DNA of 64,000 nucleotides from Astrocystis sublimbata (lineage: Eukaryota; Ascomycota; Sordariomycetes; Xylariales; Xylariaceae): assembly GCA_022453515.1 (NCBI GenBank), contig JAJNNY010000068.1, forward strand, positions 1 through 64,000. The letters run 5' to 3'. Shown piece by piece: positions 11,257-55,952 of the stretch. The translations under genes and the position numbers were made by a program. Numbering within the stretch: position 1 is the first letter of the stretch; the number at the start of each line of letters is the position of its first letter. The notes under the pieces are model-generated. The model had not been told where the DNA came from. It searched no databases and saw nothing but the letters and a program-made list of their open reading frames with translations.

Positions 11257-13376
11257 ATTTTCGCTCTGATGTTTGCTACGTTGAGATGTTCGATTATGAG
11301 AGTCGGGCTTCTCTAACCTTTGGGCAAAGGAGGCGAAGGAGGAGCATTGCTACTTACCTACCTAAGGTAGGTAGATATGTAGGTATATATATTATTTCTC
11401 CGCTCCGATGGAGATCGGGCAACAGATGGCCCGGGAACGTTGTCTTGATGCAGGTGTAAAGTATCATTCAATGCGGCCGGTCATACACTGTACTATGAAA
11501 GTCAACTTTCCGACCACCGCCCGCCCACCCGAGGCGGTTATCTCCAATCATGGGGTCTTCCAATTTGTCTCATGATGTTATTTATGTGTGGGGGTATGCT
11601 GGTTGGGGACTCGCCATAGATGGATGCGGCAATCGTGAGTTTCTCTACAGTCAGTTGCACACCAGAGACCTTGTAGTACGGCAGAGTCTAAGAACTAACA
11701 AAGCAGGGGCGAGGGTATCATGGGTTATGTAAGGGGAGTCAAGGACACAGAGAAGGAAGTAGAGAGCAGGTGGGTGCTCATTGGACCTCCAAAGGTGTTT
11801 TGAGTTGGTTGGGTTGTCTGGGGTTTTATTGAGAAAGAGCACAGGAAGAGGAAGGAAGCATGGGAACATTGAAGGTAGGTGGGAGAAAGGTAAGGTTGTA
11901 AGTGGTGTGAAGATCTATAGGTAATAAACAAGTTATCGCAAAGTGCCGTGGTGCAAGTTGTCGAGGCAGCCGCAACCACGGATTGGCCATCTCAAGTGCA
12001 GCAAAACAGTTCCAGATAGGGGGAGAACAGGCAAACATTAAATAAGACCATTGAATCTAACTATAAAGAGAATAAAAAGTAAACTCACTTAACCTCTAAT
12101 AGTCGCTACCCATCGCTACCCATCGCTACCCATTTCGACCCGTTCCATACATTTTGGAACATGGGCTCATCGAGCTCGACTTCGAGTGCGATATTGCGTA
12201 CCGGCCAGCAGGGAAAGCAACACATCTTGGTCTTATACTTAACACCCGAAGTGTTCGTGGCAGTAGGGCAACCGGAGGTCGAGAGTCAGGCGAGGATCGG
12301 TCAATAAAAAGGTAATTACCTAGGTAGGTATGCTGGCCGGTATCAAAGCAAGCCTCCAGCTGATAAAGACCGACGATGTTGGGAAGTCGATAGCAATGAT
12401 TGCAGCTTGGCAGGCGTTCTCAAAACCCGATGTATAGGTAGAGTGTGTAGATGGGTAGGTCTGTCTTATAACGAACAACAGTGTTGGGTGATGTATATAG
12501 GAGGAAGGAAGGGAGGATACCAATACGAGTACATATAAGTGGTTCCTACTGTGCAGGCTCAACCTCTGCCTCACAAAGTAACTTCCAAGTTGGATGCTGC
12601 ACGCAAACATGGTTACATGACGCATTGATTGTCCGTCCACTTACGTCTTGAGAGTTAACCCCATCATTCGATCGCTTCTGTTTCTCTACTCTCTTCGCTA
12701 TACTCACTGTTACACAGGCTTCGCATTCACAGCCCTCACAAATGGTACCCCCACCCGAAGAAGCGCGGATCTAAGGCTTGCCCCCGCCAGTCCTACGGCA
12801 CCATTAGAGAATAGCATTTCGAAGCCTCTTTTGAACAAGGGTTCCGCCGTGATCCGATTCTCGCGGTCGGGAAAGCTCTGTTGTGTGCTCCTCAGCCTTG
12901 CGTATGGCCGTACGCAACCCAAACCAGCCACCGCCTACAACATCCCTAGCCATACGGAGCCAGAAGACACCCGTACAGTCCCCGAGTGTGTTGAATTGAT
13001 TCCACCTTGTTGAGAAGAACCCAGTTGTTAATTACTTACAGCCCTACAACCCATCGTACAGACCCTTCGACCCAGCCCTTCCGAATCCCTTCGAGTCTTC
13101 GACCCAGGTCACGCGAAGCCAGGCTGTACTTTTCTTTTCTTCTTTTCTTTTCATGGACAGGGCCACGCCAGATTCCACACACATTAAACCCTCGGCCTAC
13201 GTTTAGATCCGCCTATGTGCCATGATGAAGCGAAATATCTTTCAACAATTACGGCATAACACCAATGCAGCTCTATCATTTGATAATGTCAATACACGCA
13301 TATTGTAGTCCGCACAGCCCTACCATCAACAAGTTATTACCCGTATTCATCTTGATCTGATTTTTCGTTGGAAAAG
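11257..13376. other. Intergenic without a supportable gene
   Basis: Contains a run of palindromic TACCTACCTAAGGTAGGTA-type sequence at about 11352-11388, another ACCTAGGTAGGT at about 12315-12330, and a 10-base tandem repeat at 12101-12134. The open frame at 12648-13013 on plus has no recognisable domain and is biased like non-coding DNA, so it is not called. Confidence 0.55.
12101..12134. repeat. Tandem 10-base repeat
   Basis: Three consecutive copies of CATCGCTACC (the first slightly changed) followed by a partial copy are seen in non-coding DNA. Confidence 0.85.
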
Positions 13377-14151
13377 ATGGTGTCACCAAAGGTAAGTGCT
13401 CATTTTACCAACCTCATGTCCTCTTGTAGGCGATACTGATCATTTCACAGCGAAGGCGAGAGTGAGTGCCCTGAATATCCTGTTGATAAGCGACCTTCAG
13501 TGCTGAGTTGTCTTATAAGTGCCCGCACTGTGGCCAAACAAGCCACCAGGCGGCCAAATGCTGGCCACCAGTCGCCGAGTTAAGCTTATAGGTACACTGT
13601 GTGAACTGCAGATGAGTTTACTAAGCTTCTATTCTATATAGGACTCCCCAGTTGTAAGTATCACCTTGGTTATCAGCAATCACTGTTATACTGACAATAT
13701 TTTAGTTTTGGCGAAATAAGAGAGATGTTTGTTACAACGTTACAAGCCTTGAGAAATGGAGAAACTAACACATTTTAGAACTTCCTGGCAGCAGCAACTG
13801 TACGCTTATATGCCCTCTCATGAACCCCACTGACTCTAACATCCCTTTAGATAAAGGAGCAAGAGATCAATGTAAGTGATACATGTACAATCATTAGTAG
13901 CTATCAAATGAAGGAGCTAATGGAACTACAGTCTCTTCGAGCCGAGCATGCAGTTAGTTAACATATATACATAGCTCGATAGGCACGCGAGAAAGAGGGG
14001 ATGGTAATACTCTTAATGGTTCGTTATACGAGGTGCTGGTATGTTACTTAAGTCCAATCACTTATTATTCTACTATAAAAGTCTAACTGTTATACAATAG
14101 CTCGCTGTAGATAGAGCCGAAGACGAAGGAGGAGCCGGAGCCGAAGCTTAA
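13377..14151 (+). CDS. Candidate micro-exon gene: CCHC zinc knuckle plus heptad-per-exon tail
   Basis: Not a family I recognise. Ten very short exons join into one open frame of 87 residues ending in TAA at 14149-14151: 13377-13391, 13451-13461, 13501-13570, 13642-13653, five exons of exactly 21 bases (13706-13726, 13779-13799, 13851-13871, 13932-13952, 13983-14003) and 14101-14151. Exon 3 encodes YKCPHCGQTSHQAAKCW, a C-x2-C-x4-H-x4-C zinc knuckle. Each 21-base exon is phase 0 and encodes seven residues: FWRNKRD, NFLAAAT, IKEQEIN, SLRAEHA, AREKEGM. The last exon begins LAVDRAEDEGG. Most donors are good (GTAAGT, GTGAGT, GTTAGT) and branch sites such as TACTGAC, AACTAAC and AGCTAAT are visible. 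Weak points are a GTCGCC donor after exon 3 and introns of 39 and 30 bases. The gene could be live or a recent relic. An alternative acceptor at 13429 would add exactly 21 bases to exon 2. Confidence 0.55.
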
Positions 14152-39565: not shown

Positions 39566-42466
39566 TCAAGAGTTGCTTGACGCCTTAGGTTTCCAGAATT
39601 GCATCAACCTTGTCAAGCGTTTTGACTTGCTTGTCTTGGATTTCTTCTCCGCTTCATTGTCGAATGGCACTTCCATGCTGAGTTTACTACGCTCTCCATG
39701 TGCACTGCTGATGAGGCGGCTTAAGCTGGCGAGGCTGGACCGCCGACGGCCAAATGCACTGGTGGTGAAGGATGCTGGTCTTTGCTCGTGGAACGGCATG
39801 TTTCTTGGCCGAATGCCTGGAAAGAAGCTCTCACGGGTAGTTGTGGAGTTGGTGCTGATGACAGAAGGAGGAACATCGATAGACAGCCGCACAACTTCCG
39901 GACCTGGCTCTCCCATCAAAAGGGAGTGGTATTGGTTCTCATCAGTAATTGAAGATGGCGCCGTGGAGATTCGGTGGGCGTCATAAGACATGGGCGAGCG
40001 CGGAGAAGGAAAGGAGGACGATTGGCCAATCGAGTACGGGCTGATAGGCGTCAGACTGGGCCCAGGAACAACGATGGAAGTTGCATCAGGCGGAGGACAT
40101 TCGGTCTGGTGCTCCCAACGTGGCGATACTAAAACGGGGTCTGGTGTTTCCGACGAACTTGTAGTAGCCATGGCAAAAGTCGGCTCTAGCGAAACAGCAT
40201 CTCCATGCAGGCTACTAGAAGAGGTTGTTGCGTTGCTCATTCTTCCCGATGCTGGCAAACTTGATCTGCTACCCTTCCTTATGCCAAGGCCCTCTACTGG
40301 CACGTCGGCCGATTTGGCCAATATTGCTCCACGCTCCTGCGTCGGGGTTGAGGCGGCATCATCCGTGTCACGTCCTTCATCCTCATCACCGGTAGTTGTG
40401 CTCTGAGATTCGCTCGAATCCTCGGCTGTGGACTCGCCGGAATGGCTGTCATCATCCTCGTCCTCCTCATCCTCCTCGAAGACATCTGCCATAGTCGACG
40501 AACTGCCAAAACGGTGGATACTGAATCGTCCTCCTTCGAATGGTGGCATTTCGGGGGCACTTTCGGCTCTACGATGATAGTGCATTCCAGGACCACTAAA
40601 TCCTCTCATGCCGGCAGCGCTGTGAAGTTGTCGCTTTGGCGGTGCTCCGGCTTTCTGGGCTTCGTCCCATTGAGGGTCACGAGTTGGGGTGTTGAACGGA
40701 CCGAGAGCCGCATCAAGGTCAATCATTGGGTATGATATTTCGTCTTCATGACGACCCTCACGATGCTTTCCCTTTCTAGATTTTGATACAGAGGGATGTG
40801 AAATCGTTCTTGTTTCCGCACCAAAGGATTGATCCTGGAATGATGCAGCTTCAAAGCCGGACAGCTCATCCCCTGCAAACCGGGTTACAGGTGGTGTTTG
40901 CGATCGACGGCGCGTCTTTGTTTTCTGTGAACGTGACTTTGACTTGCGCGTGAGTATTGAGCCGGCCCAGGTTTTCACTCTCTTTTGCCTCTTCTTGCTT
41001 GATTTCTTCTTCTCTTCAATGGGAGGCGCATCTTGTTGAGAGCCCGGATCTTGTGGGGCAACATTCAGGTTGCCAGTTGTCACCGGAAGATTTGACTCCC
41101 CATCCGCTGCTGTGCCAGCATAAATCGTGCTTGCCGGCCTAGGCTTCGTGGGGGATCCTGCAGCCGCACGAGAGTCGAATCCGAAAAACGTCCACCTCTT
41201 GGGGGTTCTCGTAGGAGTGGACACTCCTGATGGAGGTGCGGTTGCTATTCCCTCGGCTAATTCGTTGAGAATGAGCATCGAGTTGCGTCTTCTTGGCGAC
41301 ATACTGCCCTCTGCATCTCCTTGGAGGCTAGCAGTACGCTCTAGAATGGCATTGGCGGTGCTTGGGCGGGAGCTGGCTTTTGTGCGTGACGCCGGTGACC
41401 CCACATTGGCTGTCGAATCACGATCAGGGTTCATCGGGTTCGTAATAGATGCGATCGACGAGATACTTCCAGACACAGAGTGTCCCGGACGGACTGTGCT
41501 AGCTGTATCCGTCGATACGAGGGAAAGCGGGCGGGGTATAAACTCCAACGTGTCGGAGAATCCAACTCTGGCCCGAGTAACGGGCTTTGGGCCCAGTTCC
41601 GGCATTGATTGGCTTGGCTTTTCTGGAATTACGTCCGGGACTCTAACCCCTTCGGCTGAGGTAGCCTCACTGGTACCCTGCACATCACCGTCGACCACTT
41701 TTTGACCATCAACGTTGGGAAATGAGTATTGATCACGAAATCCTGCCGGACTAGTTGGAGCACTGCTACCTCTTGACGAAGTATTTGGTTGCGACTGAAG
41801 GATGAGTGAGAGGTCATGGCTTGAAATGGCTCCAGAACGTCGATGAGAATGGCCCCTCTGGTGTCTGCGAGGATTGGTCGTCGGTGTCAGGGTTGGTGAT
41901 GCAAATCCGCTTTCACTTTTTGTCGGACTCGTACTCATCAGAGTAATTGGCTCCCCCGTCTTGAGTTTGCCGCCCACGAATTCGCTACCTCCGCGCCGGT
42001 GACCCATGTGGTTGGGGCTAGTTCTGGGTGATGGGAGAGGGAAAGAAGGGCTCAGAAGAGTCGGATCCGCCGCAGGAGTTGCGCCTGGGTTGAATGAGAA
42101 ACTCGGTAGTGGCGGAGGTCTCGAGCGACGATTGGTGTTCTCGGGGGCACTGTTGCCAGGATTGAAACTGAAATCAGGTAGTGCACCCCATGGCCGGTTG
42201 GAGTCGGGTGGATCAATTCCCATGCCAATCTTGGGGATGTCTATGGCTGACTGATGACGCCGTCCGGTAGTTCTTGACAGCGACGAGGGAGCCGAGGACG
42301 AAGGGCGGGCTGGAAATGAGAAGGGCGGATTTGGCGGTGGAGGGAGGTTAAGGCGTGGCGATGGCTGAGGGCTCACAGAGCTAGCCATGGCGTCTTGCAG
42401 TATCGTGGGAGCCGCAGGCTGTACTGTTGTAACATTATTCATTTCTCCAAAGGCGGTATCGTCCAT
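39566..42466 (-). CDS. Large serine-rich disordered protein, function unknown
   Basis: Single exon, 966 residues, with no enzymatic domain. The composition is Ser/Pro/Thr-rich through most of its length, with polyproline blocks near the start (LNLPPPPNPPFSFPARP). A Lys/Arg-rich segment at about residues 484-525 (KKSSKKRQKRVKTWAGSILT) could be a nuclear or membrane-binding signal. An acidic stretch (VFEEDEEDEDDDSHSGEST) lies at about residues 667-685, and a basic C-terminal tail ends SKRLTRLMQFWKPKASSNS. Proteins of this shape are conserved in filamentous ascomycetes and usually annotated as hypothetical or cell-wall proline-rich; the sequence shows no signal peptide, so a secreted location is not supported. 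The upstream 500 bases may be a long 5' leader. Confidence 0.8.
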   Translation of the reverse strand: MDDTAFGEMNNVTTVQPAAPTILQDAMASSVSPQPSPRLNLPPPPNPPFSFPARPSSSAPSSLSRTTGRRHQSAIDIPKIGMGIDPPDSNRPWGALPDFSFNPGNSAPENTNRRSRPPPLPSFSFNPGATPAADPTLLSPSFPLPSPRTSPNHMGHRRGGSEFVGGKLKTGEPITLMSTSPTKSESGFASPTLTPTTNPRRHQRGHSHRRSGAISSHDLSLILQSQPNTSSRGSSAPTSPAGFRDQYSFPNVDGQKVVDGDVQGTSEATSAEGVRVPDVIPEKPSQSMPELGPKPVTRARVGFSDTLEFIPRPLSLVSTDTASTVRPGHSVSGSISSIASITNPMNPDRDSTANVGSPASRTKASSRPSTANAILERTASLQGDAEGSMSPRRRNSMLILNELAEGIATAPPSGVSTPTRTPKRWTFFGFDSRAAAGSPTKPRPASTIYAGTAADGESNLPVTTGNLNVAPQDPGSQQDAPPIEEKKKSSKKRQKRVKTWAGSILTRKSKSRSQKTKTRRRSQTPPVTRFAGDELSGFEAASFQDQSFGAETRTISHPSVSKSRKGKHREGRHEDEISYPMIDLDAALGPFNTPTRDPQWDEAQKAGAPPKRQLHSAAGMRGFSGPGMHYHRRAESAPEMPPFEGGRFSIHRFGSSSTMADVFEEDEEDEDDDSHSGESTAEDSSESQSTTTGDEDEGRDTDDAASTPTQERGAILAKSADVPVEGLGIRKGSRSSLPASGRMSNATTSSSSLHGDAVSLEPTFAMATTSSSETPDPVLVSPRWEHQTECPPPDATSIVVPGPSLTPISPYSIGQSSSFPSPRSPMSYDAHRISTAPSSITDENQYHSLLMGEPGPEVVRLSIDVPPSVISTNSTTTRESFFPGIRPRNMPFHEQRPASFTTSAFGRRRSSLASLSRLISSAHGERSKLSMEVPFDNEAEKKSKTSKSKRLTRLMQFWKPKASSNS

Positions 42467-45400
42467 CGAGCTGTTGTCGGTGAAAGCGGTTCAAGTCCTC
42501 CAAGCCGCTCCCGGCACAAACCCAAGAACGACTAGAGGCAATTGGATATCATAGGGCACACTGTTGAGAGAGGCTGGCAGTGCGCAAGGTCAAGTCGTGG
42601 TGCCCATGCGCCTGCTAGATATCGGTGTCTTCGAGAACGGATCCTGTAGATGTGCACTTTCGAGGCCGAGTCAGCATGGGCTCCGCGGTTGTCAACGGGC
42701 AACGGCAACGTGAGCGAGGCATGTGTGCGCAACCACAAGGTGCAGAAGGCGTACCTGGTGATAGAGGGATGTCCGAGAGCTGGTCTCGGGCTGGCCACGT
42801 TGTTGCGATTCAACACCTTGGGCTCGTGTTGACTTGTCCGTTAGCCGATTGCTGCGGATTGATCATGCAAATGAACATGCAAAATCAAAATGCGACAACA
42901 ATGCTGGCTAATGGAATACAATATTAGATATGCAGATGAAAATGAGCGGACGGCCAAAACCAGAGCAAGCCCGAAAGATCGAGAACTGCTGCTGGAGTTG
43001 AGCCAGGTGGTTGTTGAACAAGAGTTGATGTTGTTGACGACAAGGTGAAGGGAAGAGGACTGAGGATCAGACGAAGAGACTGGATGAGTTGGGAGGGTGC
43101 TAGGAAACGGGCTTCTGCACGGGACGGATTGTACGTGTACAGTCCGTGCACAGTGTGTTCTCGGCAGAACAGGGTCCTGGACTGGGGCCTGAACTGTGAA
43201 CTGGGGGAGCCGATGGAGCCAGATACTCTCAGAGGCGAGAGAGGGAGGGGCCTTGTACATGTGGATGGCTTCGATGGGGTGGTATGGGGCCGCAAGCGAC
43301 AAGCGACGCAGTGTGTACTTGGCCCTCAGTGGTCCGCCCGCCCGCACCACAGCCTGTATTCTGCCTGTGCTGGGGGCCTCTGGACACCTGAACGCCTGAA
43401 CGCCTGCAGGTACAACCGCCAGGCTAATCCACTCTGCCTCAGTAGCGCGCACCCGCCCGCGCTAAGGTCCAGAAACACCTGCGGATCTGCTGTCGACCTG
43501 TGGTGCTGGCTGCAGCGCAGTGGGCCATCTGGACCGTGTGAGGAACGCCCCAGAGCACTAGCTTGGTACGCAGGAGCTGGTGCGGCGCCTTTCTAGGCTC
43601 GACGCCCAAAACGCCCTCCCCAAATGGCAATGGACTTTCTCACTGCCTGCCTGGTAGGTATTTACATGCATGACCTGCACATCAGTGCTGCAGTGGGCGC
43701 CTGCAGTAGGGGCGACTCTGGTCTATTGGCAAAACAGGTGAGACCCTGCTTCTGTTAATGAGCGTACCAAAACCACGCATCGAGCCAACGGCTCAAGTTG
43801 TCGTTTGTTGATTCTGTGCTTGTCAATCTCGGACTCCGCCAAGTAATTACATTACACACTCGTCTATCTCAGAATCCTACGAGGCCGTTGGCGCATGCGA
43901 AAATGTTCCGAGATAAATGACCCGTGACACTTCGAAATGAAGGTGTCAAAGCAAACCCGTCCTGATGAGCAGATGAATCCGTCCCCTCCGTGTCACCTCG
44001 TCTTACCTAAGAAACAACCATGAAGCTCCTCTCCTGAAGTGCTGGTTGGCATTCAGCGCCCAACCAACCCCCATGTTCACACTTCACAACATGTACACAA
44101 ATCCGGGCAGCATACTAGGTACTACTACCTACGGGAATGCTCCTATTCCATTGCACTGAATGCTGCGCTGCGCTGTGCGACTCTGCCACCGACCGACTTG
44201 TGGAAAATTGGGAAATTCCCCGACTGCCACCTTGAACCTGGTTTAGCCTGGCATCATCTGACTATCTACCTACCTAGCATGGCAAGTTGGGCAAGGTAAC
44301 GGAGATGCGGTAGATGCATGTATTCTGGAGAGGCAAACGAAGAAATATGATTGGACCAGCAATGTTACTCAAGTTCTGTGTCAACGCCCGCTTGATGGGC
44401 CTTTCTGGAGTCTAGGGGAAATTGGCCTCGGAAAAAAACATTGAGAATCATCATACTTGCATGCATCGCTACCTACTTATTCTACGAACAACACCTCCTC
44501 CCGCGCCTCCGGCAAGCAGTCCATGCTACCTTACGAGATACCTTGACCTGGGTAATCGTGGTTTGCGCCAAGCTCAGGTCCAAGCCCCAAGTCGCAATTA
44601 GACTAGCGACAAACTTATTAGTGCCGTATTACGATGAACATGAAGCGCTCACAAGTGCGCACGCCTGCGCGCCAGAAGCAGATTTCCTAATTCTGTCGCG
44701 GCAAAACATACCGGCACCCCTGGTCAAGAAACCCTGGCAACTGGAAACGGATTCGTGTTCAAGACGCCGATTGTTGTTTTTGGCCTTGATGACAACACTA
44801 CCTGGGTATCTACTAACGTAGGCCCCTGCTTCATACATGGCCCGAGATGGCCTAACACATGGAACACGAGTGTCTCTGCAGAGCACATTGCAGCCTATCA
44901 TACTTTGGACAAGATTGGTTAAGAAGACGCTTCCAATTGGGGGTCTCGGGATGTTACACTGCCTCGACTGCCTCCTGCGTCCCCGAGCTGGCCATAATAA
45001 CAAAAACTAGTAGTTGCTAACATGAAACAAATGCAACCCGCCAGATGCTCTAGCTTTTGGTTCGATATTAAAAACAGCCGTTGCGCAGCTGTGAATAGTT
45101 GATCCTTGTTCGATGCGTTCTGATGCCACCCGTGAAGACCAGATATGTGAGAATATTCTCTGCTATTCGTACGAGTATGCGGGTGCATGTACTGTGTGCC
45201 AAAAACAAAAAACAATGCGAGGCACCACATCTGTCTGTAAGTATATCCTCCGCACACGCAGCTGAGAAGCGAATGCTACCTTGGCGGCAGGAGGAATCAT
45301 CGTGTGTCCACTTAACATGCCTTGACAACCAACTAGCGTTCAGCGCCATATCATCAAATCACCGCTAAGATCAACGGAGTAGCTGCAATCCTTATGCATG

Positions 45401-52315: not shown

Positions 52316-52640
52316 GCTTTGGGCATTTGGAAATTAGATGGCGTTCGGGGTGATTAGCGGCGTGTTTATTTTGAAAGATCTGAAGAAGACGGTATTAACC
52401 TTCGTTAAGCATCTGTGCTGTCTTGAATAGGATGACAGAGTAGAGCTTCGCGGTAACAGTAACAAGACTGATGGGAGAAATGTTTCTAGTAACAACTTTC
52501 ACTAACAGTTTAGTTGCTATAAGAGCTAGCTTGTGTAGCTGCTCGCCCCTTTAGCATTAAAGGCATATAAAGGATCAAATACATATAAAATCAATATATA
52601 AATCTAATTAAGTTAACTATTTCTTGTATAAACGAATAGT
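52316..52640. other. Intergenic leading into AT-rich DNA
   Basis: Upstream of the F-box gene. The base composition shifts to AT-rich from about 52560, slightly before the transposon's inverted repeat. No gene. Confidence 0.6.
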
Positions 52641-52695
52641 GTTTAACGTCATCCACAAGCCATCTTTGTACCCAAGCCATCTTTGCACTTTTTAA
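52641..52695 (+). repeat. Left terminal inverted repeat of the pogo-type element
   Basis: Contains TTAACGTCATCCACAAGCC followed by ATCTTTG and a partial second copy (CCAAGCCATCTTTGCAC). It is repeated in inverted form at 54458-54495. The left side has an extra internal CCAAGCCATCTTTG unit. Confidence 0.9.
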
Positions 52696-54457
52696 CATCT
52701 ATTTCACGCTATTATTAAAAACACAACAACAATATAGTTAAAATAGTTCAAATCAATTAGAATCGTTTTTTTAGAGGTTTTTACTTCTATTTGATATGTT
52801 TGCGTATTATGCCCAGTGTTGCTACATATGCCACAATGTTATGGACCGCTATAAGCCCTTTTTACAAAATAACTACTTTTATTTTAAACTACTAATTTAA
52901 TATCTTTATCGCTTTTTAATTCCTATAAAACTTAAGAATCTTTTATAATAAGAGGTCCTTTATGTACTAGTCGCTTATTTTTTGTTTTATAACATTTATT
53001 AAATACATGGTTAGTTTTGCAAAGTTCTTTGTTCTTTTAGTATAAAAGGGCAACCTTATATATTATAGCTTATATAGCTTTCGTAATTAAATTATTTAAC
53101 TCTAAAATTAGTATTAGTAAGCTTTTTTAATACCTTTGGATACTGTTTTTAAATAAGAGTTAACTGTTCTAAGGCTTTAAAGGAAGTAGTAGGTGTTTTA
53201 GAAGTCCAAGCTGGGGGGGGTAGTTCAGGCTTAATAAAAGGAGTTTTTTCGTTTTTTTTTATATTTAATAAAAAAATCACCCTTTTTATATCTAAAAAGA
53301 TAAGTCTAATAGCTTTAAATCCTAATTGAATGTTTTTTTTTATAAAAGTAGTTATAAACGTTTTAAAAAACCCGGCTAAAAAATCCTCCTTTATAATATA
53401 GGTTTAGTACTGCTGTATTAGATCCTTAATATATAACAAATAAAAGCGTTTTAGTATATTAAAAAGTACTAGATTAAGAGGCTGGAGTCTGTGTAACAAA
53501 TAGGCAGGCATACAAAAGGTAATAATATTATTATTTTTATAAAATTCTTTAAAATCTATCAAATAATAGCTTTTGTAACTATTAAAGATTAAAAGGCGTT
53601 TTATACCCTTTGTATAGCTCTAAGTATACAAATTAAAATGCTATAGCTATTTTACGCCTATTTCGTTTATAGTCCAACCGTTATTTAAAAGATTAATAAC
53701 CTAGTTAGGTAGTAAAGTAGTATTACGATACTAAGACGTAAGGTAATACGCGCCCGCGAAGATGATATATAGCGGTACCGCCCAGCCTTAAGAATTAATA
53801 GCTTGAACTACTATAACCTATTCTCTGCCTCCTTACTGGGCCTACCTAGGTTTTCTATATCTTTCTGAGCTTGTTATAACTATTCCGGTTATGATTATAC
53901 TTATTAGAAACCCCGATTTGTTAAAATTATAGATATTTTTAATTATAATACTATGTTTCGCGATTATATTAGCTATAAGCGTAAACTATACGTAATAATT
54001 TATGGGATTTTTATTAAAAGCTCGCTAATAATTAATTTAACGATTTAAACGCGTCTGGAGGTTAGGTTATTGTTATACGAAGTTTGAGGCTTAGTTTTTG
54101 CTTATAGGTATCGTGTATTAGATGCGTTGGAGGATATTAGCCATTTCTTTAATGTATTGAAGCCGGGGTAGAAACGTTTGCGAATTTGGCTCGAGTATAC
54201 GTCTAATAATTGTGTCCTTTTTAGATATATCGAGTTTTCGCGATCTTTAGTTTGTAATATAGTATAGTTAAGAACTATTAATACGTTATACTAACATATA
54301 GTTATAAACGTTATAAATTTTAGCAATTTTGCGTAAAAAAAATAAGGGTTGTGTTTTTTCGTTTGAATTATAAGCTATAGATTAGCTTCTGTAGATTTGT
54401 ATGTTATGTTATGATTAGTAAGATATTTGTAGGTAAATGTTGAAGGTTGGAAGTTGT

Positions 54458-54495
54458 TCAAAAGTGCGAAGATGGCTTGTGGATGACGTTAAGTT
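54458..54495 (-). repeat. Right terminal inverted repeat of the pogo-type element
   Basis: Read on plus, AAAAGTGCGAAGATGGCTTG and TGGATGACGTTAA are the inverted complement of the left repeat. One C/T difference and the missing second AAGCCATCTTTG unit distinguish the two ends. The exact element end and target duplication (perhaps TA) could not be fixed. Confidence 0.88.
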
Positions 54496-55952
54496 AAATA
54501 ATTGAACATTTAATTGTATATACTTAATACTATAATGATGGTTAATCTTGTCGGGCTTGTGAGCGGGTCTAGTCTTGGTAAGGTCTGGGCTGATGTAGTC
54601 ATCGGAAATGCGGCAAGATCCAACGTCGCATCTTCTAGTTCTTAATCATGTGGGACCAGCGCATTTACTATACTATTTAATTCAGGTACCAAACACACAT
54701 TTTGAATACTCGTAAGCAAAGCAGTTTCGCACCCTACACAGCACCCTGACGTCCAAGGCCAGTCATATTAACCTTGCAACTGGCTGAGTGGCAAGGCATG
54801 TCAAAGTTAAAGTCAAGGGCAAACGTGGAGAGTTGACGACAAGGAGATTACCGTGGTGAGAATTAAGTGCAGTCAGTTGGGGCACGGCGGTAACGATGAC
54901 GGGGTACGTCATGAGCTGAGCCACCTGGGCCACGCGCTCAGAGACGCTTGGCATCATTATATTATATGCGTTAGTAGATTTGTCACTCAAGCACTTCTTG
55001 TCTGTACATGGCGGGCCACGCGACTGGGTACCTACTCGGTTTCAAAGCTGGTTCCCGTGTACGACGGAGTACTGCCGACGGTTGTTTCTTCCCTGTTTGG
55101 TATAATGATTGGCGACACAAAGGACCTGATGGAAGGCGGCGCGCGGCTGTAAGTGTCGAGGGTGTCGTTCAGGGGTCGCAAGGTCGGATCACATGCATTA
55201 GTTAGTTGTCTTGTTTAAGGCCGGGGGTGTCTTTGACCTGCATGTGAGGACTTAGAAGGTGATGGTGATCTTGCCGCTACCCGGCATGTATCTCCATCTC
55301 CCAGATTTGGTTGGGGGTTGGTATCTATGTACTTAGAGCCCTATAATTGCCATCAAGCAACGAGAGCCGACGATGACTTATTTAATCCATCCGTGCATGG
55401 GAAATACTTGGGGAAAAAGCATCCAGGTAAATCCGGTAGGTACCTAACCTACTAGTACATGCCCTGTAAGAGAGTACCTAGAGGCCAGGTAGGTAGGTAC
55501 CTTACCTCTTCCTTAAAGTGGTGCCTTGACGACATTGGCTCCATCTCCAGGGCTGATTACAGGACCTATTTCTTGGCCTCGGAGCCAATCACCTACGTAG
55601 GTACGTGGGAGCCCCCCCTGTTACCAGCTCGCCCAGGTGCGATTCACCCCGCGCATGCCCGCCCTGTGCCCCAACCCTGCGGCGCTGCTTCCCGTGTGTG
55701 CTGCCTGCCGACTGCGCCCGTAAGCCACTGGCTCGACTAGCACTGGCTCGACTGGCGCTCTCTTTCTCGTATAATTTGATACGTCAACTTAGAAACTTAA
55801 AGCTTCGCCCATGCCCCATCTCGTCCTAACACGTTCCTGATAATCTAATCCATAACATTCGTGTCCTTGTTTTCTAAGTAAAATTAAAAGATCCTCCTAC
55901 TCTACTACCTACGGCGCACAGATTCGACATCAACAAGGCTGGCACTCGAGAG
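54496..55952. other. Intergenic without a supportable gene
   Basis: Flanks the decayed transposon and leads to the PX-domain gene. A dense cluster of GGTAGGTACC/ACCTAGGT motifs lies at about 55435-55510. The last 300 bases are pyrimidine-rich on plus and are the probable promoter and leader of the next gene. ORFs in the region have no domains. Confidence 0.55.

Follow-up and report, generated by a model that had tools for sequence, protein, structure and literature searches.

Runs of micro-exons are best known from animals and plants. The micro-exon genes (MEGs) of Schistosoma contain runs of short exons of 6–81 bp, mostly of 15 bp and mostly multiples of three; they are hard for automatic annotation, and their products are secreted (PMC10526429). 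The characterisation of fungal micro-exons has been described as limited, and gene finders can miss them (PMC11121469); in truffles, NLR genes possess 3-bp micro-exons that are alternatively spliced (PMC4986451, PMC10197012). For Ascomycota, intron definition has been described (PMC12403724). In the literature surveyed, which consisted of titles, abstract openings and passages and included few subscription papers, no array of equal 21-nt exons was found in fungi. An initial annotation of the locus presented here had stated that no named fungal family was known to have its layout, which holds for arrays of 21-base exons but not for fungal micro-exon arrays as such, as these are known (PMC4986451, PMC10197012).

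The locus is a candidate small gene on the forward strand, located between a DUF7730-like gene and sec10 of Astrocystis sublimbata (Xylariaceae). We consider it likely to be an orphan micro-exon gene, which either yields alternative products or has recently been broken.

Genomic setting and exon map

The downstream neighbour, encoded on the same strand, is sec10 (Pfam Sec10_HB and Sec10_N), with a protein identity of 83–89% to named Xylaria species among the matches listed. The upstream neighbour, on the opposite strand, codes for a DUF7730-like protein which scores 26.2 bits against a Pfam cut-off of 27. A DNA search of the 42.6-Mb A. sublimbata genome for further copies matched the locus itself only, and a protein search of the same genome for paralogues likewise returned nothing else. 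No Rfam match at gathering score was obtained anywhere in the window, by which we mean the whole 64-kb stretch of DNA that was analysed. Two other regions of the window may be mentioned: an AT-rich island at 52500–54500 (G+C 0.26–0.31, with both flanks at about 0.5), which could be a RIP-mutated element, and an open frame of 974 residues (39569–42490, reverse strand) without a Pfam match at E ≤ 1e-5.

A promoter-like pyrimidine tract precedes the candidate gene by about 225 bases, and pyrimidine tracts are marks of fungal promoters. Behind the gene there are three AATAAA hexamers, of a total of 16 on the forward strand of the window.

Introns were scored against GURWGY / RYURAY / YAG, the consensus that PMC12403724 cites for A. 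nidulans. It was adopted because a codon-score search for introns in the host's own genome returned 9, 23 and 27 candidates, which were mixed and too few for training. Donor scores count the matches among the four variable positions (RWGY) of GURWGY. The features, all on the forward strand, are:

13129–13152, forward strand: uninterrupted 24-base pyrimidine tract, promoter-like, 5′ of the ATG
13377–13391, forward strand: exon 1, encoding MVSPK, with ATG context AAAAGATGG and donor GTAAGT (4/4)
13451–13461, forward strand: exon 2, 11 nt, with donor GTGAGT (4/4), followed by a 39-nt intron
13501–13591, forward strand: exon 3 up to donor 13592, with a CX2CX4HX4C motif and an in-frame TAG at 13589–13591
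13520–13561, forward strand: the CX2CX4HX4C motif in exon 3, CPHCGQTSHQAAKC
13642–13653, forward strand: 12-nt exon, encoding DSPV, with donor GTAAGT (4/4)
13706–13726, forward strand: 21-nt exon a, encoding FWRNKRD, with well supported splice signals
13779–13799, forward strand: 21-nt exon b, encoding NFLAAAT, well supported
13851–13871, forward strand: 21-nt exon c, encoding IKEQEIN, well supported
13932–13952, forward strand: 21-nt exon d, encoding SLRAEHA, with a good acceptor and donor GTTAGT (3/4)
13983–14003, forward strand: proposed fifth 21-nt exon, encoding AREKEGM, doubtful (30-nt intron upstream, donor 2/4)
14101–14151, forward strand: last exon of 51 bases, encoding LAVDRAEDEGGAGAEA, then TAA
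14424–14477, forward strand: three AATAAA hexamers, possible 3′ end signals

The five 21-base blocks proposed initially were found to be exact, each with AG before and GT after it, and phase 0 is open across all of them and on into the 51-base last exon. If a micro-exon run is defined structurally as consecutive exons of at most 36 nt with lengths that are multiples of three, the 12-nt exon and the four (five) 21-nt exons form a predicted run of this kind, with canonical signals at exons a–d. By simple arithmetic, removal of any single 21-nt exon is frame-neutral, and so is joint removal of exons 2 and 3, which (up to 13591) comprise 102 nt. When this pair is retained, the frame ends at its last codon, the TAG. 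A neutral exon pair ending in a stop would fit a switch between two products and, equally, a gene which has acquired one fresh stop.

Splice signals, chance and ranked splice paths

Upstream of exons a, b, c and d lie introns of 52, 52, 51 and 60 nt; their donors agree with the consensus at 4, 3, 3 and 4 of the 4 positions, and each carries an exact RYURAY branch hexamer 10–17 nt from the intron end together with a YAG acceptor. A full match to the consensus is also seen in introns 1 and 2, the latter despite a length of only 39 nt. Splicing after exon d would involve an intron of either 30 nt or 148 nt. In the former, which precedes exon 5, donor GTTAGT and branch hexamer GTTAAC overlap; acceptor 14100 has no exact branch hexamer nearby. 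The exon 5 donor (14004, GTAATA) agrees at 2 of 4 positions, while GTATGT at 14039 ties with the exon 1 donor for the top donor score of the region. The claim of five 21-base exons could thus be retained for exons a–d, which have good donors, branch sites and acceptors, while the fifth is doubted because of the 30-nt intron with overlapping signals, the weak donor, and the better one at 14039. Exon d may instead be terminal, with a stop TAA at 13959–13961. A strong ordinary intron candidate at 14039–14100 (GTATGT, 62 nt, TCTAAC, TAG) is absent from the gene model proposed initially.

Exon 3 is the other weak point. Between the knuckle and the TAG there are three candidate donors (13571, 13579 and 13592), and two more (13599 and 13601) lie past the TAG. 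Donor 13571 (GTCGCC) keeps the frame and agrees at 1 of 4 positions, as does 13579 (GTTAAG), which shifts the frame into a stop; donor 13592 (GTACAC, 2/4), with AG in front, leaves the frame intact with an intron of 50 nt, and the codon preceding this donor is TAG. None of the choices for an intron from exon 3 to the 12-nt exon offers a good donor, and none has an exact branch hexamer. The initial annotation had joined all exons into one uninterrupted frame: the chain through 13571 is indeed open, with 87 residues, but it depends on the poor donor GTCGCC.

Base composition differs between exons and introns (G+C 0.53 vs 0.37, for the exons as initially annotated, with 13571–13591 in neither set). 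The five 21-nt exons have a G+C of 0.48 (P 0.03 vs random blocks nearby).

To be counted, a chain had to have donors of at least 3/4, exact branch hexamers, introns of 40–100 nt and an open frame, criteria that were applied after the locus was already known. The real sample consisted of 150,449 bases of the A. sublimbata genome on both strands (301 kb of strand sequence), representing 21 of 38 sources; 16 of these 21 are loci picked for zinc knuckles, and overlaps of about 1.9 kb enter the count twice. This sample contained no other chain of at least three micro-exons, whether of equal length (9–48 nt) or of any length (6–30 nt). Third-order random sequence was generated in three sets of 10 Mb, trained on the window, the target and an intergenic stretch. 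These 30 Mb contained no equal-length chain of three or more, while any-length chains of three occurred 23, 71 and 47 times; any-length chains of at least four occurred twice, both of length four and both in the target-trained set. A cruder test gave no chain of at least three in 30 Mb of random sequence with introns of 45–90 nt, and three chains of three, but none longer, with introns of 28–110 nt; in the real sample it found the array locus alone. As the array is unique in 150 kb and no equal-length chain occurs in 30 Mb of random sequence, a chance origin is unlikely; the sequence statistics back the notion of a micro-exon gene whose array consists of 21-base exons.

Enumeration of splice paths from the ATG at 13377 gave 3,706 complete models, 2,794 of them with at least 38 residues. 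The splice-score weights are our own, with a cost of ln 40 for each intron, and the donor cut-off excluded 13571, so that the named models were scored apart. The 38-residue CCHC peptide, which ends at the TAG, ranks first among the 2,794 models and fifth among all 3,706, the four top paths overall being ORFs of 9, 20, 12 and 6 residues. The 39-residue path (exon 1, 12-nt exon, a, b, c, d) is exceeded by 30 of the 2,794, the 53-residue tail model by 465, the model via donor 13592 into the array by 734, and the 87-residue model of the initial annotation by 2,713. The corresponding scores with intron cost are −0.2 (38-residue), −3.9 (39-residue), −8.2 (53-residue), −9.4 (via 13592) and −19.3 (87-residue). 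Without this cost, the splice sum favours models with many introns, and the model via 13592 tops the named models with 20.1 over eight introns, against 13.9 over nine for that of the initial annotation. Three or more 21-nt exons are contained in 11 of the best 100 models of at least 38 residues; once introns carry a cost, long array models fail to stand out, and the array does not dominate the list.

Coding potential, putative zinc knuckle and repeat structure

The codon score is highest in phase 0 for exons 1–3, for the 12-nt exon together with the four 21-nt exons, and for exon 5 joined to the last exon. Against shuffles, in which stops weigh heavily, the corresponding P values are 0.157, 0.006 and 0.022, the first of which is not significant.

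The motif of exon 3 had been described as a CCHC zinc knuckle. Its CX2CX4HX4C spacing, that of zf-CCHC (PF00098), is present in CPHCGQTSHQAAKC, turned up once among 3,000,006 random codons, and is found in the window at this position only. The profile did not confirm the assignment: Pfam at E ≤ 1 gave four weak matches, zf-CCHC not being among them, the best of which was zf-Mss51 (E 0.011, below the family cut-off), and the motif is absent from the 43 zf-CCHC profile matches obtained in the host genome, where 50 candidates were scored. Also, Ser replaces Gly before the His, while Gly is found in 30 of 31 other CCHC rows compared, 8 of which are repeats from overlapping loci (leaving 23 distinct), all from loci chosen for their knuckles. 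A zinc-binding peptide is plausible from the sequence. Several CCHC motifs each were observed in three other loci, L005, L006 and L004 (C113, C1 and C142), with GH in all those listed except for one NH in L006. PDB matches of the 38-mer to designed C2H2 fingers (E 6e-10 when summed over repeats, single stretches being weak) were attributed to composition, not kinship, and marginal matches to zinc ribbons and nucleocapsids were read likewise.

Neither the spliced product nor a composite of alternative frames had a homologue at E ≤ 10 when searched against about 5.8 billion proteins; five-residue words were required, only lengths of 48–152 and 85–271 residues were admitted, and 8 and 33 candidates shared words. 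The collection includes Sec10 of close relatives (88–89% identity), and no A. sublimbata protein in it matched the predicted product. We regard absence from this collection as weak evidence, because micro-exons can escape annotation (PMC11121469) and because of the word requirement and the restricted candidate lengths.

According to the initial annotation, each 21-nt exon could contribute one heptad to a modular coiled coil. This had to be abandoned, as neither the a/d contrast nor the helical moment was better than for shuffled residues. For 35, 51 and 28 spliced residues, the a/d hydrophobic contrast gave p values of 0.81, 0.80 and 0.81, so that a coiled coil was rejected for lack of heptad periodicity (p about 0.8); for the helical moment, the same three lengths gave p 0.60–0.97. 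None of the seven columns of the 21-nt exon peptides is hydrophobic throughout. The ten pairwise comparisons of exon-intron units gave z values from −0.82 to 1.82, none of them convincing as tandem duplication, and likeness among the 21-nt units was not significant either (exon identity p 0.26, heptad similarity p 0.31). Most simply, the equal size would go back to a single exon-intron unit that was duplicated long ago, even if the copies are not significantly alike.

Competing explanations and relation to known micro-exon systems

Of several possible explanations, we tentatively favour, at somewhat less than even confidence, a real, single-copy, lineage-restricted small gene that produces knuckle and tail peptides by inclusion or skipping of exons 2 and 3. 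The splice signals and the frame are observed, and we infer that these signals are used. The pre-mRNA would be spliced by intron definition into micro-exons of 15, 11, 91 and 12 nt and four of exactly 21 nt. Inclusion of exons 2 and 3 would yield a basic CCHC peptide of 38 residues, ending at the TAG with which exon 3 closes; behind this TAG, the frame continues unchanged through the 12- and 21-nt exons. Omission of the pair would join exon 1 in frame to the array, giving 53 or 39 residues without a knuckle. To judge by the motif, the knuckle product may bind nucleic acid, whereas the 21-nt exons would add a charged tail that tolerates the loss of single units through alternative use. The product is probably a small peptide located in the nucleus or the cytosol. 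Against this reading, skipping of exons 2 and 3 requires a 250-nt intron, which is at odds with intron definition; it is nevertheless placed first because good splice sites persist at exon 1 and in the array. Its more ambitious form, in which the isometric phase-0 array would be a tail of tunable length and the 102-nt stop-bearing cassette a switch between CCHC peptide and tail, is quite unlikely.

The strongest competitor, though rather unlikely in our view, is a decaying gene that once had a single frame (knuckle plus 21-nt tail) and is now cut by the TAG at 13589–13591, with a poor exon 3 donor and doubtful splicing past d. Decay would account for the same phase being open on either side of the TAG via donor 13592, for the poor splice sites at exon 3 and past d (30- or 148-nt intron, donor 14004 at 2/4, no branch hexamer near 14100), and for the failure to find a homologue in about 5.8 billion proteins. 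On the other hand, good splice signals are retained at exons 1–2 and a–d, and the frame has one stop only, with no second copy or relative for comparison.

That the exons are real but belong to a spliced non-coding RNA or an alternative sec10 leader, the frame being incidental, is unlikely. No protein homologue was found, long frames connect through weak sites only, and sec10 lies downstream on the same strand; however, each of the three pieces scores best in phase 0, the lengths of the 12-nt exon and of every 21-nt exon are divisible by three, and the CCHC motif is rare by chance, while the three AATAAA hexamers ahead of sec10 could end a separate unit. It is very unlikely that AG-21-GT blocks have arisen by chance within AT-rich intergenic DNA, as the counts in random and in real sequence argue against this, even if the criteria were applied after the locus was seen. 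Most improbable is the model of the initial annotation, a single protein of knuckle and coiled coil with one heptad per exon and its length set by exon number, for its 87-residue chain is open but needs a 1/4 donor, a 30-nt intron and a 2/4 donor at 14004, has the lower splice sum, ranks below nearly all models and lacks heptad periodicity.

If the favoured gene is spliced as the signals suggest, its four equal 21-nt exons would show how small an exon can be where splice sites pair across introns, and they would offer a natural and simple fungal system for testing whether exons can be skipped without loss of frame. Annotated fungal gene sets may then omit genes of the micro-exon kind.

Like the Schistosoma MEGs (PMC10526429), the A. 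sublimbata locus would have a run of short, mostly frame-neutral exons. MEG introns, however, range from 100 to almost 5000 bp, compared with 39–60 nt around the supported exons here, and a signal peptide is found at the N-terminus of MEG proteins (PMC10526429), which on inspection is lacking in the MVSPKRRR start, MVSPKRRRDAEL being basic and devoid of a hydrophobic stretch. The SP7 effectors of mycorrhizal fungi were dropped as a splicing precedent, as the text consulted on them mentions no micro-exon.

The nank (NACHT-ankyrin) genes of Tuber melanosporum are ascomycete genes with several frame-neutral micro-exons, but these are 3-bp exons of NLR genes (PMC4986451, PMC10197012). The exons described here are of 21 nt and belong to a small candidate gene that lacks NACHT and ANK; for its 87-residue and its 38-residue product alike, the Pfam matches at E ≤ 1 include neither domain. 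Xlr2 of Trichoderma virens, also from a filamentous ascomycete, has a switch micro-exon of 20 nt that was missed by annotation, but this is a single exon whose length is not divisible by three, and it belongs to a transcription factor that is conserved in Trichoderma and backed by RNA evidence (PMC11121469). In Fusarium CYP621A, a very small (1-nt) exon is spliced in a Sordariomycete; this again is one exon, and the enzyme gene to which it belongs has orthologues and is supported by RNA (PMC12940212). The stwintrons of Hypoxylaceae and Xylariaceae share with the locus the fungal family, tightly packed introns and intron definition, but they are nested, one intron lying within the splice site of the other, whereas here the introns are separated by exons (PMC12403724).
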